Assembly (NCBI GenBank): GCA_024180945.1 | Contig: JAKSGN010000036.1 | Span: 62,001 to 126,000 of the forward strand | Length of the DNA: 64,000 nt | Source of the DNA: Macrophomina tecta | Lineage: Eukaryota; Ascomycota; Dothideomycetes; Botryosphaeriales; Botryosphaeriaceae | Reading direction: 5' to 3' | In this document: piece by piece, positions 26,165-34,123 of the stretch | How positions within the stretch are numbered: position 1 is the stretch's first letter | Layout of the letters: the number at the start of each line of letters is the position of its first letter | Position numbers and translations under genes: made by a program | The notes under the pieces: generated by a model | Seen by the model: only the letters and a program-made list of their open reading frames with translations | Database searches by the model: none | What the model was told of the DNA's origin: nothing

Positions 26165-26169
26165 CTCTG

Positions 26170-26658
26170 TGTTACGGCGCAGCCTCCACAGGGTTAGGGA
26201 ACAGCAGGATGAGGTAGTAAGTGGGGAGCTCGGGTGCGGCGTGGAAAGGACCCACGCGCGCTCACGTGAAGCACGTGACGCCAAGATAGTGCTCTCACTG
26301 CTCCGAAGGCGCTCGGACCGGAACACCACAGAGCACCCAGAGCAGGACAAGCTACTCTGTCTGCTCCCAAGGTCACCGCCCTCCCGAGGGACAGAGCAGA
26401 CGGATCAGAAACTAGATTGTATACACTTTCCTACTTGTATATAAACCACACTCCTTAGATAGCTTTGACCTTCGTGGTCAACTTCAATAACAATTCAGCA
26501 CATTGTTAGTAACACGGCCTTCGCACGCAGTGCTCAGTCTTGTCACGTGTTCGACTTGCTCTCACCCTCTTCTTGTACCCACTCAAGGAAAACCCCCTCG
26601 ACAGGTTTTCTCCCTCTTCGGTGTTTGGATCCTTAGAGGCAGAGGCCCGCTCGTTACA
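26170..26658 (+). repeat. 5' LTR of the young chromovirus
   Basis: Runs TGTTACGG…CTCGTTACA, 489 bp. U3 holds a TATA box (26438-26445). R probably begins near 26474. A small hairpin, TTGACC-loop-GGTCAA, lies at about 26465-26481. Confidence 0.96.
26438..26445 (+). promoter_or_regulatory. LTR TATA box (TATATAAA)
   Basis: Perfect TATATAAA in the LTR; the same box is at 33742-33749 in the 3' LTR. About 36 nt downstream is GTGGTCAA (26474-26481), a plausible transcript 5' end because it is complementary to the primer-binding region. Confidence 0.75.
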
Positions 26659-26670: not shown

Positions 26671-26749
26671 TCCTTGCAAGGAGAGGAAGGTTCCGAGATC
26701 AAGTCTCATCGGGTAAGGTATCACCCCCTAACGAGTTTAGGAAACAGCA

Positions 26750-28567
26750 ATGGCACCAGGATCTCAGATGGAGGTCGACCCGGCCGAGGGTCAGGTTCAG
26801 GGTGTCCAGGGGCCAGCTCAGCCCGCACAGCAAACGGAGCCCACCAGAGCTGAGCTCTTGCAGCTCATCGAGGAGCTGAAGACTCAGAACGCTCGACTGA
26901 TCGAGCACACGACAAAGCGGAGCGCTACTAAGGTTAAAGTAGCGGCACCCGAGAAGTTCGATGGGGACAGGAAGAAGCTTCAATCATTCCTACTCCAGAT
27001 GCAACGCTACCTCCAGTTCAATCAAGCGCAATTCGACAGCGACGCCGAGGAAGTACTCTTCGCATCAACCTACCTCAGAGGAACGGCAGAGGCATGGATG
27101 GAACCATACCTTCGCGACCACCTAGCCAACGAACACTCTCTCGAGAAGAGACGAGAAAAGACCAAGGAAATCTTCGGCACCTACACGGGATTCGCAGACA
27201 ACCTTAGGGCCACTTTCAACGATCGGGATGAAGTCCGCAAAGCCTCTAACGATATCATGACCGTTAAACAACTAGGGTCTGTAGCTGTCTACGCAACCAA
27301 GTTTCAACAGCTTGCAGCCTACCTCGAATGGTCAGACGAGACTTTCCGCGACCTCTTCTACAAAGGCCTGAAGGAAGAAGTCAAGAAGAACATGATTACC
27401 CACGAATACCCATCCACCTTCCAGAAGATGGTAGACCTTGCGTCTCAGATCGACGGTCGCATGTACGAATGGAAAATGGGTTCTCGACAAGCCAACACCT
27501 CGAAGCCTCGCCGTGAAAGAACAACCCTCGAAGGCGGAGACGCTATGGCCCTCGACGCCGCCAACCGTCAAGATGATAAGAAAGGAAATAAGGGTCGAAA
27601 CAGCAACAAGAAGCCCAAAGGACCTAATCCGAACTGGACGGACGAACAGAAACAGCGCTACAAGGATCGACTCTGCATCACCTGCGGCAGTGACAAACAC
27701 TTTTCTCCCAAGTGTCCGCAGAACCCTCGAAACAAGAAGGATGGAAAGCAGACCTCGAGCGCTCAGCGCGAAGCATCGGTCGCATCCCGCCAAGACAACC
27801 ATGATACGCTGCACTGGACAGCCTGCTACGACGATGACTGCCAGATGCACCAAAGCAGCAAAGACATATCGGGATGGTACCCCCACGAACCGCGACAATT
27901 CGGTATGATGACTAGGAACGAAGAAGTCATCGAGACCGACGATATTATTAACAGCTTCCCCTTGGACGAGGAGCTCGCGAACAGCGAAACCGGAGAACTA
28001 TACGACTCAACGGACAGCGAAGCAGAAGCTGTGCCGGACCCCACAACCCTTCCGGAACTCGAGCGCCTTGCAGCCAAGTACGGGATTAGCGCAGAAATGA
28101 CGGACGAGAACGATCAACTCGCCCAGGTAATCTGGATTCCCCACGAGAGAGGATTGGCCCTCACGGTGCTGTGGACATGGCGCCAAGGGACCCTCTGGGA
28201 AACCCGAATCGAGCAAGATGGAAAGAAGTACGAACTCATCGTCACAAAGGAAACCGCACTCGTGACGCTCCATCATCAAGGAATGACTGCTCGACAGCAA
28301 GCAGACTACGACTCCCTCCGAGAGTTAGCAAGGATTCTTTGTCAGCATGGCACGGCAACCATCCAGAACCACACACTCCAGTGGATACCGGACGAGAAAC
28401 TCAACATGCCAACCTTCCGATACCAGGTGCGAAAGGACATAGTCTACCAGCGAAAACAGTTGCGCACCAATAAATGGACCAACTGGAAACAAGCATACCT
28501 TCAAGTCAACGAATGGGAAGACTACATGCACAGTGAAGTCTACGGCTATCCGAAGCCAAAAAACTAG
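26750..28567 (+). CDS. Gag polyprotein of the chromovirus
   Basis: 605 aa from the first ATG after the PBS. A Gln-rich N-terminus with a short coiled coil (~residues 35-60) is followed by the retrotransposon gag capsid domain (~70-245; EKFDGDRKKLQSFLLQM, YLRGTAEAWMEPYL). A basic segment then leads to one CCHC zinc knuckle, CITCGSDKHFSPKC (C-x2-C-x4-H-x4-C, ~residues 311-324), which binds the genomic RNA. The C-terminal ~250 residues are an acidic extension of unknown role. Pol follows in a different frame, its first ATG 53 nt past the gag stop, so Pol needs a frameshift, reinitiation or another device. Confidence 0.95.
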   Translation: MAPGSQMEVDPAEGQVQGVQGPAQPAQQTEPTRAELLQLIEELKTQNARLIEHTTKRSATKVKVAAPEKFDGDRKKLQSFLLQMQRYLQFNQAQFDSDAEEVLFASTYLRGTAEAWMEPYLRDHLANEHSLEKRREKTKEIFGTYTGFADNLRATFNDRDEVRKASNDIMTVKQLGSVAVYATKFQQLAAYLEWSDETFRDLFYKGLKEEVKKNMITHEYPSTFQKMVDLASQIDGRMYEWKMGSRQANTSKPRRERTTLEGGDAMALDAANRQDDKKGNKGRNSNKKPKGPNPNWTDEQKQRYKDRLCITCGSDKHFSPKCPQNPRNKKDGKQTSSAQREASVASRQDNHDTLHWTACYDDDCQMHQSSKDISGWYPHEPRQFGMMTRNEEVIETDDIINSFPLDEELANSETGELYDSTDSEAEAVPDPTTLPELERLAAKYGISAEMTDENDQLAQVIWIPHERGLALTVLWTWRQGTLWETRIEQDGKKYELIVTKETALVTLHHQGMTARQQADYDSLRELARILCQHGTATIQNHTLQWIPDEKLNMPTFRYQVRKDIVYQRKQLRTNKWTNWKQAYLQVNEWEDYMHSEVYGYPKPKN

Positions 28568-28620
28568 ACGGCCCTACGGCATTGGGATCGACCCAGGGGC
28601 CACAGTCTAGGTCCCTTCAC

Positions 28621-31170
28621 ATGGTATCACGCACATCGGAAACGGAAACTCTCACCGGAAAGAAACTTTGGGGGCAATTCAAGATCACCGGAGTCCTGCG
28701 AGGACGCACGATCTCGATACTAGTCGACAGTGGATCAAGCGGAGACTTCATCCACAACGAGCTAGTACAAGAACTGAACATCCCTTATCGAAAAAAGAAA
28801 GAACCCTACTCTCTCAGCGGATTCGACGGAAGAAACGCCGACTACGGAGGAGGATGGGTGCGCATCGAAACAGAAGAAGTCTCACTAGAAATCAACGGAC
28901 ACACCGATTGGGTCACCCTTGATGTCCAAAGGATCCCGGGACACGACGTTATCCTCGGAATGCCTTGGCTCAGGACTCGCAACCCCCTCATCGACTGGGC
29001 GAGCGATACACTCTTCCTACGACAGGATATTTGGGACATCATCGAGAACCCAGAAAGCAGTTATAAGAACATCAAACAGGAACTGCTAGACATCTTCCAA
29101 GGATACATCTTCAGCATGAAACGGGAAGTAGCCAGTGTAAGGCCTGAATGTGGCAACTGTGTAGGCGACTCCGATAGTGGTGTAAGTCAGAACCAGGACT
29201 GCGACGCAGAAGGCGAAGCCTCCTTGGTAAAATGCAACCCTATCGCAGGAATAAGCCCTACTGAGCGAAACGATACCCTCGAATCATCAGAAGAAACGCA
29301 AGACTCAAACGATGGCGTAAGGCCCAGTGACGGCAGCATCAACGGCAACCTTGAGGAAGGCCTAAGACAGGACCAGGACTGCAGCGTACGAGACGCCGCC
29401 TCCTCGGTAAAATGCAGCGCCTCAAGCGGAGTAAGCCCTACCGAGTCAAGTATTCCCGAAATTCAGGTACAACACTTATCACGAAGGACTACGCGGAAAA
29501 AGCGTAAGGCCAAGAGTAAGGCTTCGCGGAAGCAATTGGCAGCCCTGGAACCTCCCGTAGACGTCCAGACAATCTCAGGAGAGGCATTCAGGCGTATGCG
29601 ACGCCAAGGACAACAGGTCTGCCTCATGTACATCAAACCCTCACCGGCGGTGCAACAAAGAGCATTGGCCAGGGCCCAACGGGAAAGGCCAAGGGATGAG
29701 GACTGTCCAACTCCCATCGGAGGAGATGATCCTGCGAGGATCAAAGGAGGACAACACGGCAGTTTGGAGATGTGGCAGCAACCACAAGGAACACCTCCAA
29801 TACCAGAAATGGAAACGGTACCCGAAGAGTATTGGGACTTAGTTGCCGTTTGCCAAGAAAGAGGAAAAGGAGACTTGCCCAAACATCAACCATGGGACCA
29901 CGAGATTCCGCTCAAGCCAGGAACGAAACCGGCTTACAAGCCTATCTACTCCTTATCGAAGAAGGAAATGGAGGCTTTGAAGGAATACATCGAGAAGAAC
30001 CTCGAACGAGGATACGTTCGACCATCAACGTCATCAGCCGGATATCCGATCCTCTTCGTCCCCAAGAAGAATGGCAAGCTACGCCTCTGCGTCGACTATC
30101 GACAACTCAACGACATCACGATCAAGAACCGATACCCGCTCCCACGCATCGATGAGCTCCAGGACAAGTTAGGGAATGCAAAGTACTTCACGAAACTGGA
30201 CCTCAGGGACGGATATCACCTGGTTAGGATCAAAGAAGGGGAAGAATGGAAGACAGCCTTCAGAACGAGGCTAGGACTCTACGAGTACACGGTAATGCCA
30301 TTCGGGCTTACAAACGCGCCAGCAACCTTTCAGTCGCTCGTCAACGACACGCTGCGCGAATACTTAGACATCTTCTGCCTGGCATACCTCGACGATATCC
30401 TCATCTTCTCAGAAACACTCGAGGAACACAAGAAGCATGTCAGAAAAGTCCTAGAAACCCTCCAAGCCAAGAACCTGACCATCGCACCCGATAAGTGCGA
30501 GTGGCACGTACAAAGAACAGAATTCTTAGGCTTTGTCATCACCCCCGGACATGTCGGTATGGACGACTCGAAACTGGATTCCATCAGAGAATGGCCAGTA
30601 CCAAAGACGATCAAGGAAGTACAGTCCTTCCTTGGGTTCGCGAACTTCTACAGGAAATTCATCTGGAACTATTCAAAGGTCACGGAACCTTTAACGCGAC
30701 TCACCCAGAAGGAGCATGGCTTCCAATGGGGAGACGATCAGCAACAAGCCTTCGATTCGCTGAAACGGATGTTTTGCGAAGCACCCGTCTTGGGGATATA
30801 CGATCCCGACAAACCGATCGAAGTAGAGACTGATGCGTCAGGATTCGCCCTAGGAGCATGTCTCAGCCAGCCTGACGAGGAAGGCAGATGGCACCCGATC
30901 GCGTTCTACTCAAGAAAGTTCACCCCAGCAGAGCTCAACTACGACACTCATGATAAGGAGCTCTTGGCTATCGTCTCAGCATTCAAGCACTGGAGACACT
31001 ACCTGGAAGGAGCCGACCAACAGGTGATAGTGCATTGCGACCATCAGAATCTCACACGCTTCACCACGACCAAGGAGCTGAACCGACGACAGGTTCGCTG
31101 GTCACAAGAATTGGCATCCTACAATTTCAAGATCACGCACAGAAAAAGGTGTAGACAACGCCGCCGCTGA
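28621..31170 (+). CDS. Pol part 1: protease, reverse transcriptase, RNase H
   Basis: The open frame extends from 28582; the first ATG is at 28621. The retropepsin active site VDSGSSGDF lies about 20 residues after that ATG. RT carries FVPKKNGKLRLCVDYRQLN, LDLRDGYH and the catalytic YLDDILIFS (about 30,385). RNase H begins VETDASGFALGACLSQ and ends around ITHRK, where an extra adenine in the run 31143-31147 shifts the frame and gives a stop at 31170. The older copy has one adenine fewer. A long linker between protease and RT (~220 residues) is rich in acidic and Ser residues. Confidence 0.93.
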   Translation: MVSRTSETETLTGKKLWGQFKITGVLRGRTISILVDSGSSGDFIHNELVQELNIPYRKKKEPYSLSGFDGRNADYGGGWVRIETEEVSLEINGHTDWVTLDVQRIPGHDVILGMPWLRTRNPLIDWASDTLFLRQDIWDIIENPESSYKNIKQELLDIFQGYIFSMKREVASVRPECGNCVGDSDSGVSQNQDCDAEGEASLVKCNPIAGISPTERNDTLESSEETQDSNDGVRPSDGSINGNLEEGLRQDQDCSVRDAASSVKCSASSGVSPTESSIPEIQVQHLSRRTTRKKRKAKSKASRKQLAALEPPVDVQTISGEAFRRMRRQGQQVCLMYIKPSPAVQQRALARAQRERPRDEDCPTPIGGDDPARIKGGQHGSLEMWQQPQGTPPIPEMETVPEEYWDLVAVCQERGKGDLPKHQPWDHEIPLKPGTKPAYKPIYSLSKKEMEALKEYIEKNLERGYVRPSTSSAGYPILFVPKKNGKLRLCVDYRQLNDITIKNRYPLPRIDELQDKLGNAKYFTKLDLRDGYHLVRIKEGEEWKTAFRTRLGLYEYTVMPFGLTNAPATFQSLVNDTLREYLDIFCLAYLDDILIFSETLEEHKKHVRKVLETLQAKNLTIAPDKCEWHVQRTEFLGFVITPGHVGMDDSKLDSIREWPVPKTIKEVQSFLGFANFYRKFIWNYSKVTEPLTRLTQKEHGFQWGDDQQQAFDSLKRMFCEAPVLGIYDPDKPIEVETDASGFALGACLSQPDEEGRWHPIAFYSRKFTPAELNYDTHDKELLAIVSAFKHWRHYLEGADQQVIVHCDHQNLTRFTTTKELNRRQVRWSQELASYNFKITHRKRCRQRRR

Positions 31171-31195
31171 CGCGCTCAGCAGAAGGGTAGACTAC

Positions 31196-33748
31196 ATGGA
31201 AGGAAGAATCGAGCCGCAACCTGCAGTATTGCAGTGGACAAGCGATGGATCGCTCACCCTTGCCAGACAATCTTTCCCAATGCTTCGCATCGAGTCAAAC
31301 CCGTGGCATCAGAAAATCCGAGAAGCATACGCTCAGGACTCCTTCGCGCAGGAACTTTTAGCGCTGGAGGACGACCCGCGTGTTGCTCGAGATAGGGAAG
31401 GAATGCTTCTCTTCAAAGGATTAATTTATGTCCCGACAAGACTGCGAGAAGCACTCGTCAAGGACATGCACGTAGCACCCGCGCATGGACATCAGGGCAT
31501 CGACAGAACGACCGAGAGGATCACGCAAAACTTCTACTTTCCAGGATTACGAAAAATGGTCCAGCGTATAGTTTCACAATGCGACCTTTGCATCCGAAGC
31601 AAAGCCGCGACACACGCTCCGTACGGACAACTACAACCCCTGGAAGTACCAGAACGACCATGGCAATGGATCACACTAGACTTCATCACGAAGCTACCAG
31701 AGTCCAGAGATCCGCTCACAGGAGTCAAATTCGACTCGATCCTAGTCTTTGTCGACAGACTCACGAAGTACGCATGCTTTTTGCCCTACCTAGAAGCATC
31801 GAATGCAGAACAGCTAGCCTACACGTTTCTCCGATACATCTTCGCGGATCACGGAATGCCGGAAGTATTGGTCTCGGACAGGGACAAGCTGATGAGATCG
31901 GAATTTTGGCAAACACTTACGCGCCAGCTTGGAGCAAAGAACAAACTCTCTACAACGGCACACGCGCAAACCGACGGCCAGACAGAACGGATGAACCGGA
32001 CTCTCGAACAATATCTCCGCTGTTACATCAACTACCCACAGGATGACTGGGCCACATGGCTGCCCACGGCACAATTCGCCTATAACAGCGCCAAACAAGA
32101 GTCAACCAACGTATCCCCGTTCTTTGCCAACTATGGGTTTGAACCAGACGCGTATAGAGAAGCCATCCCAAGCAGGAAATTGGCCCAGAAAGGTGTTCTC
32201 AAGGCCGAGCAGCTAAGAGGATTGCACAAAGCCATCAGTCTCGACCTCGAATATGTACGAATCATGATGTCCAAATACTACAACAGACGGCACCAGGCGG
32301 CACCGAACCTTAAAAGGGGGGATAAAGTGTACCTCCTCACGAAAAACATCAAATCAAAACGACCGAGCGACAAATTGGATTTCAAGAAAATCGGTCCATT
32401 CGAAATTGCAAAAAAACTGGGAGAAGTCACTTATCGACTCAAATTGCCTAACACACGAATGAACTCTACCTTTCACGTGGCATTGCTCGAGCCAGCACCA
32501 GAAAACGCCACCATCCCAGAAACTCAAGAAGAGATTGTACCAGAAAACCCTGACGCCGAAGAAACCCAGTACCCAGTCGAGAAGATCCTAGACTGCAAGC
32601 GGTTCGGACGTCAGCTCAAATATCTCGTCAAATGGGAGGGTTACGGAAATGAAGACAACCAGTGGGTGCCAAAGGACGACATACACCCAGATCTCGTCAC
32701 AGAATTCCATCGCCAGAACCCTGACCTCCCGCGGAAACGGGGTCGCCCCAGAAGGACGGATCCATCCACAACTCAGCCCCAGACGGAAACGCAATCCCAG
32801 CCACCGAGTCAGGCTGAGGACCTCCAGAATTCGAGGAGCCCGCAACAACAGGAGGACTCGGAGAACGTTCCGGAGTTGGCACGTCCTCGCCAGCTGCACG
32901 TCGCCTGTCGCGATCCTCCTTTTCGAGTTTTTCCAACTCCTCGATGGACGCTAGCTCGCGTTCAAACATCCCCTTCCGCTTACGCTCAAGAAGAGCGAGT
33001 TGCTTCTTTAAGCGATGACGACGAGCGTACACCTCGGAACGACGCTCCTGGAGTTTTAACTCCTCCACCAGAATTTGACGCTCATCCTCATGAAGGCGCT
33101 CCAGCTGATCCTCCACCTTCTCCACTTCCGCGTCAATTTTCGCCCCTACAAAAGTCAGCCAGGACAGAGAACAAGCGGGGAAGACACACAGTCGCGCTGA
33201 GAAACCACCAAGTCGCATTTACGGTTCTTCGACAAACAGCGCTTGCAGTGCCCCGAATCCAAGCTAATGAAACACTTCGCACCAGCGGCACGACAAGCGC
33301 TGCAGGGGGAAGGCATCTCGTATCGGCAGCGACTGACGAGCGCGTGGCGACGTTGCGTCGAAGAAACCTTGGGCATGATGAGCGAAAGTCACGGAAGGAA
33401 GCGAAGGTCACCTACCAAGAACTTATACACGTCACGGAATCCTTCGGGCCGAAGGACCTAAAAGGGGGGATAGTGTTACGGCGCAGCCTCCACAGGGTTA
33501 GGGAACAGCAGGATGAGGTAGTAAGTGGGGAGCTCGGGTGCGGCGTGGAAAGGACCCACGCGCGCTCACGTGAAGCACGTGACGCCAAGATAGTGCTCTC
33601 ACTGCTCCGAAGGCGCTCGGACCGGAACACCACAGAGCACCCAGAGCAGGACAAGCTACTCTGTCTGCTCCCAAGGTCACCGCCCTCCCGAGGGACAGAG
33701 CAGACGGATCAGAAACTAGATTGTATACACTTTCCTACTTGTATATAA
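31196..33748 (+). CDS. Pol part 2: integrase and chromodomain (frame-shifted)
   Basis: The frame is open from just after the homopolymer; 31196 is its first ATG. The HHCC zinc-binding region (HGHQGIDRTTERI … CDLCIRSK) precedes the DDE core (WITLDFITKLP, VLVSDRDKLM, TDGQTERMNRTLEQYL). A C-terminal chromodomain (about 32,570-32,720; YPVEKILDCKRFGRQLKYLV, WVPKDDI) is expected to target heterochromatin. Beyond it the frame runs on for ~340 codons, across the antisense gene, the PPT and into the LTR. That tail has no pol-like content and is probably open because of the antisense gene. True Pol likely ends soon after the chromodomain or is undefined in this copy. Confidence 0.85.
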   Translation: MEGRIEPQPAVLQWTSDGSLTLARQSFPMLRIESNPWHQKIREAYAQDSFAQELLALEDDPRVARDREGMLLFKGLIYVPTRLREALVKDMHVAPAHGHQGIDRTTERITQNFYFPGLRKMVQRIVSQCDLCIRSKAATHAPYGQLQPLEVPERPWQWITLDFITKLPESRDPLTGVKFDSILVFVDRLTKYACFLPYLEASNAEQLAYTFLRYIFADHGMPEVLVSDRDKLMRSEFWQTLTRQLGAKNKLSTTAHAQTDGQTERMNRTLEQYLRCYINYPQDDWATWLPTAQFAYNSAKQESTNVSPFFANYGFEPDAYREAIPSRKLAQKGVLKAEQLRGLHKAISLDLEYVRIMMSKYYNRRHQAAPNLKRGDKVYLLTKNIKSKRPSDKLDFKKIGPFEIAKKLGEVTYRLKLPNTRMNSTFHVALLEPAPENATIPETQEEIVPENPDAEETQYPVEKILDCKRFGRQLKYLVKWEGYGNEDNQWVPKDDIHPDLVTEFHRQNPDLPRKRGRPRRTDPSTTQPQTETQSQPPSQAEDLQNSRSPQQQEDSENVPELARPRQLHVACRDPPFRVFPTPRWTLARVQTSPSAYAQEERVASLSDDDERTPRNDAPGVLTPPPEFDAHPHEGAPADPPPSPLPRQFSPLQKSARTENKRGRHTVALRNHQVAFTVLRQTALAVPRIQANETLRTSGTTSAAGGRHLVSAATDERVATLRRRNLGHDERKSRKEAKVTYQELIHVTESFGPKDLKGGIVLRRSLHRVREQQDEVVSGELGCGVERTHARSREARDAKIVLSLLRRRSDRNTTEHPEQDKLLCLLPRSPPSRGTEQTDQKLDCIHFPTCI
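32697..33376 (-). CDS. Antisense gene: Zn2Cys6-type cluster plus coiled coil
   Basis: Two exons on the minus strand: 33376-33190 and 33145-32697, joined by a 44-nt intron (GTGTGT donor, CTGAC branch, TTTGTAG acceptor), giving 636 nt or 211 aa in frame. Residues ~24-53 contain six Cys spaced C-x2-C-x6-C-x8-C-x2-C-x6-C, exactly the fungal binuclear zinc cluster spacing. Residues ~63-140 form a highly charged coiled coil (VEDQLERL … SIEELEKLEKEDR). The tail is Pro/Ser/Gly-rich. It overlaps pol antisense downstream of the chromodomain, and its start lies ~100 bp from the 3' LTR, whose U3 could serve as a reverse promoter. The frame is conserved in the diverged copy at 9.7-10.3 kb. I infer a DNA/RNA-binding or regulatory protein of the element; expression is untested. 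Confidence 0.72.
33460..33470 (+). other. Polypurine tract
   Basis: AAAAGGGGGGA directly upstream of the 3' LTR (TAG then TGTTACGG), the expected primer for plus-strand DNA synthesis. The degraded copy has an equivalent purine run at about 10444-10454. Confidence 0.85.
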
Positions 33749-33962
33749 ACCACACTCCTTAGATAGCTTTGACCTTCGTGGTCAACTTCAATAACAATTC
33801 AGCACATTGTTAGTAACACGGCCTTCGCACGCAGTGCTCAGTCTTGTCACGTGTTCGACTTGCTCTCACCCTCTTCTTGTACCCACTCAAGGAAAACCCC
33901 CTCGACAGGTTTTCTCCCTCTTCGGTGTTTGGATCCTTAGAGGCAGAGGCCCGCTCGTTACA
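33474..33962 (+). repeat. 3' LTR of the young chromovirus
   Basis: 489 bp, read as identical to 26170-26658. Followed by the target-site duplication CTCTG. Confidence 0.96.
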
Positions 33963-34123
33963 CTCTGTAGTACTTTCTTAATGCAAAGAAATCAGCATAA
34001 AATAGTAGAGAAAAATCTTTGAAGCCTATAGAATCAGTAAGCTGATCTATACGCCTCACTGTATATGGATATATTTCTATACTGCGCCTTGACGTGCTTG
34101 ATAGGCAACACTACCCTCATCCA

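Follow-up and report, generated by a model that had tools for sequence, protein, structure and literature searches.

An antisense Zn2Cys6-like gene and its adjoining promoter repeats as a candidate exchangeable cassette in chromoviruses of Macrophomina tecta

Results

An apparently spliced antisense gene between the chromodomain and the 3' LTR

A 64,000-nucleotide (nt) stretch of the genome of the ascomycete Macrophomina tecta (GenBank assembly GCA_024180945.1, contig JAKSGN010000036.1, positions 62,001 to 126,000 of the forward strand), hereafter the window, contains a Ty3/gypsy chromovirus, a retrotransposon bounded by long terminal repeats (LTR). On the strand opposite pol, this element carries an apparently spliced gene for a 211-amino acid (aa) protein with a six-Cys cluster and a coiled coil. 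Related elements seem, from sequence comparison, to swap this gene together with the set of repeats in their own promoter. On balance, its product is probably a homodimeric, Zn2Cys6-like factor, specific to the element, that regulates the LTRs flanking it. The parts of the gene are as follows.

33190..33376, minus strand: exon 1 (187 nt; ATG at 33376), encoding a basic N terminus and the six-Cys cluster
33215..33304, minus strand: Cys cluster C-x2-C-x6-C-x8-C-x2-C-x6-C, residues 25-54
33146..33189, minus strand: intron of 44 nt, GT..CTGAC..TAG, phase 1
32697..33145, minus strand: exon 2, encoding the coiled coil, the RELASIEELEKLE motif, an acidic/aromatic C terminus and the stop codon
32889..33145, minus strand: predicted long coiled-coil helix, residues about 63-148, placed by alignment to a modelled homologue

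Direct reading of the sequence reproduced exactly the structure originally predicted, i.e. two frames joined through a 44-nt intron, 211 aa, the six-Cys spacing and a coiled coil. Placement of the coiled coil is based on a helix spanning residues 63-140 in the AlphaFold2 model of homologue P0019. The 3' end of the gene overlaps the last chromodomain codons examined by 17 nt, and its ATG lies 97 nt from the 3' LTR in the window and 97-107 nt away in 11/11 gene models. Fungal Zn2Cys6 clusters follow the spacing C-x2-C-x6-C-x5-12-C-x2-C-x6-8-C. The window protein fits this range exactly; among the related gene types described below, B, C, E, F, and H fit as well, and J, K, and L have a longer second loop.

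The gene recurs across chromovirus subfamilies and in other fungi

An integrase-chromodomain search of the M. tecta genome, in which 96 of 746 candidates were scored, returned at least 97 matches, at least 40 of them without stops. We read the 3' ends of 17 of 40 stop-free copies (the window copy, its four identical sisters L042-L045, and B, C, C2, E, F, G, H, I, J, K, L, and M), and also that of D, a C-type copy with one stop in the pol row and an interrupted antisense exon 2. An antisense six-Cys gene was present in 14/14 chromovirus 3' ends, in 13 by pattern scan and in J, with its longer loop, by separate reading. These genes fall into nine types: W (the window type), B/I, C, E/G, F, H, J, K, and L/M. 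A phase-1 intron of 44-49 nt occupies the same place in 12/12 gene models (11 automatic, J by a separate script), each model being the best-scoring GT-AG pair among alternatives. In the C-type copy L069 (C18:701429-704605), antisense exon 2 is broken by an insert that holds another, 341-aa open frame.

Three protein searches yielded 9, 22, and 46 homologue matches; those of named origin come from ascomycetes (Botryosphaeria dothidea, Watsoniomyces, Monosporascus, Cordyceps, and Cryphonectria). Several homologues, among them P0012, P0013, P0015, P0016, P0018, P0019, and P0020, have the Cys cluster, the coiled coil and the RELASIEELEKLE motif in a single frame, as expected from the splice model. 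Proteins with NCBI names could themselves be spliced predictions; those from short metagenome contigs probably are not. Distant fungal homologues keep the cysteines of the cluster: in a 10-sequence alignment, C35, C44, C47, and C54 are invariant and C25 and C28 are at least 90% conserved. The public 'hypothetical protein' P0005 (B. dothidea GTA08_BOTSDO08750) is apparently exon 2 alone, annotated without exon 1.

The 680-nt gene region has 42 matches in its own genome, of which 5 are identical over 680 nt. When 24 gap-free copies were translated, 19 contained stops, and 2,425 of the 2,613 differences between these relics and the window copy are C>T or G>A. Their enrichment at CpA (1,195/2,425 changes vs 79/389 available sites) identifies the differences as products of repeat-induced point mutation (RIP). 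Because RIP products carry no information on selection, the relics were set aside for selection tests; for the same reason their gap-free alignment was rejected as a sign of length constraint. At least two more subfamilies with an antisense gene survive only as RIP-mutated relics, e.g. C7:988319-990901 (L026) and C18:217065-219633 (L032).

Selection acts on the antisense protein

We therefore compared intact gene types. The ratio of nonsynonymous to synonymous differences (pN/pS) over the whole antisense frame is 0.39 for C-F, 0.28 for E-H, and 0.48 for K-L, with bootstrap intervals below 0.6. Read in the pol frame, the same DNA gives 1.07, 0.96, and 1.28, respectively. Exon 2 alone gives 0.39, 0.37, and 0.49 for the same pairs in the antisense frame; in a fourth close pair, B-E, constraint on exon 2 is weak (0.79 in the antisense frame, 1.03 in the pol frame). 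In distant pairs, whole-gene antisense values range from 0.60 to 0.86, with intervals that reach 1 for C-E and C-G. The proposed check that the antisense ratio should not lie near 1 thus came out in favor of the gene in three close pairs, and so did the check for homologues that retain the Cys. By this measure, the protein under conservation is the antisense one and not the pol tail. Taken together, the identical copies, the 14/14 3' ends, the intron phase, the selection values and the fungal homologues indicate that the antisense gene is real, beyond chance.

Chance open frames mirrored from pol codons would be one alternative, and the pol frame is indeed open on the opposite strand too. However, it is the antisense frame that is conserved in 3/4 pairs, the pol-frame values being 0.96-1.28, and homologues occur across fungi. 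These results already disfavor such an origin, which we regard as scarcely credible. That the antisense RNA alone matters, through double-stranded RNA or interference, with incidental open frames, is very unlikely: according to the review literature, antisense RNAs from LTR elements need not code for protein, but here antisense pN/pS is well below 1 in close pairs, and both the Cys and the intron phase are conserved.

The gene and the distal U3 are exchanged together

Over 1,255-1,295 nt of pol DNA, W is 98.6% identical to B, 96.1% to C, and 95.4% to F, and its pol shows 97% protein-level identity to E, G, H, and I. Nevertheless, blastn of W against B, C, E, F, G, H, and I found no match over 32757-33436, which is most of the gene, or over about 33506-33714, the distal U3. 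Between these two blocks, an island at the polypurine tract/LTR start matches at 87-92%, and beyond them the TATA-R-U5 block matches at 95-98%. Exon 1 of W is only 26-36% identical to that of B, C, E, F, and H. A gene and a distal U3 that are unalignable amid near-identical flanks imply that the part encoding the cluster and coiled coil moves along with the distal U3.

The breakpoints differ between types. B and E are 91% identical over the final 270 nt of the gene, but their N-terminal parts and distal U3 are unalignable. H (L080) is a recombinant in which a C-like 3' gene end (L076; 95% over 266 nt) sits on an E-like gene and U3 (L078). Such varied breakpoints imply that the C-terminal part is also exchangeable on its own.

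The distal U3 harbors a repeated 5-mer in eight of nine gene types

Arrays were scored in the region from the last CACGTG to AGATTG, a rule set after viewing the U3 sequences. In the window, the arrays lie as follows.

33582..33717: candidate site array in the 3' LTR, with TGCTC/GAGCA at 33594, 33603, 33635, 33644, 33666, and 33698
26278..26413: the same candidate array as it recurs in the 5' LTR; the TATA box for gag-pol lies downstream

The W array has 6 exact copies of its 5-mer vs an expected maximum of 3.2 (0/200 shuffles). Across types, a 5-mer is repeated 5-8 times in 8/9, the expected maximum being 2.3-3.2: GAGCA (x6) in W, GTTCA (x8) in B, GAGCC (x6) in C, ACTGA (x5) in E and H, GGATA (x5) in K, and GATCC (x5) in L. 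J, scored afterwards by the same region rule although its sequence had already been seen, has GATCC (x6) with a 14-nt period (0/1000 shuffles). Among the eight types first scored, P was ≤0.005 in seven. Control blocks gave 0/40 in pol, 0/3 in R-U5/leader, and 1/128 in host DNA. The eight B sites form four direct-repeat pairs with an 8-nt period and alternating orientation. Exact pairs in W have a 9-nt period, pairs in C a 10-nt period, and L a 17-nt period. CGG/CCG pairs were also considered as sites and rejected, since they occur in the U3 of W, B, C, and H, are absent in E and F, and show no common pattern.

Motif and exon 1 go together to some extent. E and H, which share a motif, have exons 1 that are 96% identical; J and L share a motif with 67% identity in exon 1; and K, whose motif is one base from that of L, is 60% identical to L in exon 1.

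The pol frame stays open through the cassette

Past the chromodomain the pol frame continues without a stop across the antisense gene and U3 and ends in the TATA box (32715..33748, plus strand). No pol-frame stop occurs inside the antisense gene in 11/11 models, and the J tail is likewise open. When the antisense codons of seven types (W, B, C, E, F, K, and L) were shuffled synonymously, 23.8 pol-frame stops were expected in sum vs 0 observed; the two control sense frames had 40 vs 40.8 and 51 vs 47.3 expected. Significance per type is moderate (P 0.001 to 0.05, with E and B about 0.05). Over the stretch between the antisense ATG and the TATA box, 4 pol-frame stops were observed vs 32.7 expected under dinucleotide shuffling; the other frames have 44 and 25 vs 33.2 and 32.4 expected. 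In W the pol stop sits within the TATA box itself. We infer that selection keeps the pol frame open but does not keep its amino acids. The reason may be, as a guess, escape from mRNA decay triggered by a long 3' untranslated region (UTR); alternatively, the frame could supply a flexible tail. With a conserved gene on the other strand, this stop-free frame is a clean example of openness, and not the amino acids, being under selection.

The host element

The remaining parts of the element in the window are listed below.

26170..26658, plus strand: 5' LTR (489 nt, TG...CA; same sequence as the 3' LTR)
33474..33962, plus strand: 3' LTR (489 nt)
26165..26169 (left) and 33963-33967 (right): target-site duplication CTCTG
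26741..28567, plus strand: gag (Ty3_capsid, Retrotrans_gag)
28537..33748, plus strand: pol (protease, reverse transcriptase, RNase H, integrase, chromodomain), frameshifted between RNase H and integrase in the window copy
33457..33469, plus strand: polypurine tract adjoining the 3' LTR, read from sequence
33567..33581: two CACGTG boxes in U3; CACGTG was found in the U3 of every type examined
33715..33962, plus strand: TATA-R-U5 block (TATATAA at 33742), with 95-98% identity to seven loci (B, C, E, F, G, H, and I)

Its assignment to the chromoviruses rests on RVT_1 (134 bits), RT_RNaseH (139), Integrase_H2C2 (63), Chromo (41), and Ty3_capsid (46), all above cut-off; the rve domain taken alone scores below it (16 vs 32.6 bits). 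In window-class copies, pol is frameshifted in 3/5 and uninterrupted in 2/5, and the frameshift common to copies suggests a defective copy mobilized in trans. On the minus strand at 33437-33480, the polypurine tract read antisense resembles a splice acceptor (TAACAC, a pyrimidine run, AG), so that a 5' UTR intron of the antisense mRNA might end there.

Discussion

We propose that the protein would be made from the 3' LTR, whose U3 lies directly upstream of the antisense ATG, and would dimerize via its coiled coil. The dimer would bind the candidate array in the U3 of both LTRs, controlling gag-pol from the 5' LTR and the regulator itself from the 3' LTR. Its effect is most likely that of an activator or anti-silencer, which we state with low confidence and prefer to repression because the tails are acidic/aromatic. 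Subfamilies would then diverge jointly in regulator and sites, a pattern like that of repressor and operators in heteroimmune phages. The fullest form of this proposal holds that, in fungal chromoviruses, a spliced antisense gene for a Zn2Cys6-like dimeric factor and a private array of dimer sites in the distal U3 form an exchangeable cassette that confers self-recognition on a subfamily, as in phage immunity. The pol frame would be held open through the cassette without amino acid conservation, so that the same DNA serves antisense protein, sense tail and promoter, and the tail may spare genomic RNA a long 3' UTR. To this combination we give a little less than an even chance.

Several observations weigh against regulation of the element's own LTRs. 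Array and gene are adjacent, and a single recombination tract could move both without any binding. F has no significant 5-mer array (P 0.40), a 7-mer with one mismatch reaching P 0.035. A strict paired-repeat test is clear only for B and C (0/500 and 0.006, respectively) and weak for K (0.042); the hits in W and F come from CACGTG alone, and E, G, H, L, and M have none. The array claim rests for this reason on the 5-mer count test. E-H and J-L share U3 ancestry, so that their motif similarity is not independent and the agreement between motif and exon 1 amounts to co-segregation and not to proof of recognition. CGG half-sites are typical of Zn2Cys6 factors, and the array motifs are not of this kind. 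Finally, Pfam Zn_clus (PF00172) was not reached, with 14.8 bits for the exon 1 open reading frame (ORF) and 12.5 bits for the spliced protein vs a cut-off of 21. Of the label Zn2Cys6 in the original prediction, the spacing holds and the family assignment is not supported as stated; because the score lies below the curated cut-off, we call the protein Zn2Cys6-like and do not count it as a family member.

Two further explanations accept a real protein. It might act elsewhere, in chromatin targeting with the chromodomain, in nuclear entry or in a particle function, with arrays that bind host factors and differ to escape silencing or tune expression, gene and U3 co-varying from adjacency only. The 97-107 nt between ATG and LTR in 11/11 models would suit this, and in plant Tnt1, which is not known to carry a gene of this kind, U3 varies from one subfamily to another. 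We nonetheless consider it unlikely, if by no means negligible, given the predicted DNA-binding architecture, the dimer-like geometry of the arrays and the comparison of B with E, where the C-terminal 270 nt are shared and the DNA-binding part goes with U3. The protein might instead act with the opposite sign, as an autorepressor or a copy-control/immunity factor that limits related copies. The logic of a cassette with private sites recalls phage immunity regions, and the sites have the CACGTG boxes on one side and the TATA box on the other, but acidic/aromatic C termini, in which homologues show, e.g., repeated D-W/F-D patterns, are more suggestive of activation tails, and this version strikes us as improbable, slightly more so than action elsewhere. 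A regulator that acts on its own LTRs, most likely positively, is thus the interpretation we retain. The suggestion that a spliced antisense gene with a coiled coil might tune LTR transcription has in this sense stood, though not as a unique case.

A retrotransposon with its own antisense regulator was originally deemed unusual; an antisense gene is in fact a regular part of each chromovirus subfamily read, and one was already known, brtn of the Boty-like elements (Ty3/gypsy) in Botrytis cinerea (Zhao et al. 2011, Virology 417:248, as cited in PMC8365987, PMC7264820, PMC4227169, and PMC5987419). As far as these citing descriptions go, Boty is likewise a fungal chromovirus-type element (gag, reverse transcriptase, integrase, chromodomain) with an extra antisense gene, and in M. 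tecta the position and antisense orientation of the gene hold in all 14 loci. No BRTN-named protein is among the 9, 22, and 46 homologue matches. Plant LTR elements also carry antisense ORFs in the same place and orientation, and TRP28 of Retand is predicted to bind DNA; according to the available summaries, Retand differs in protein domain and has its repeats in the internal region, and they describe no exchange of a regulator with U3.

Other mobile elements offer parallels in mechanism. VANC anti-silencing proteins of Arabidopsis VANDAL DNA transposons are sequence-specific and have private, fast-changing target repeats that vary between related transposable elements, as outlined in PMC5735166. 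Our candidate regulator is likewise element-encoded, with private repeats that co-vary with the protein in 8/9 types, adjacency being a confounder; unlike it, VANC comes from a plant DNA transposon, has different domains and, by that outline, had its binding measured. The foamy virus transactivator Tas binds its own LTR promoter, as summarized in PMC4929722, and here too the predicted target of a retroelement-encoded protein is its own LTR, although Tas, in that summary, is a sense-strand protein of a vertebrate virus with another domain.

With Gal4, Hap1, Ppr1, Leu3, Put3, and Pho7, the protein shares the Cys spacing and the order of cluster then coiled coil, and fold comparison gave weak matches; it differs from fungal Zn2Cys6 factors in scoring below the Pfam cut-off, in being borne by a retrotransposon and in having candidate sites that are not of the CGG type. 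Searches of open-licence literature for self-binding regulators or antisense zinc-cluster genes of fungal LTR elements showed, among the entries listed, only citations of brtn and plant antisense ORFs. What is new, within the literature searched, is the combination of a Zn2Cys6-like antisense gene, its exchange along with a matched U3 array, and a pol frame kept open on the other strand.

Reviews list as an open question what antisense genes do in LTR retrotransposons. In M. tecta the candidate targets adjoin the gene, are short and repeated, and differ from type to type among nine gene types in one genome, which makes specificity for the own array accessible by swapping proteins and U3 arrays among types. 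If the proposal is true, retroelements would evolve self-recognition by exchanging regulator and sites, and these subfamilies would constitute a naturally occurring panel in which DNA-binding domains are paired with their sites.
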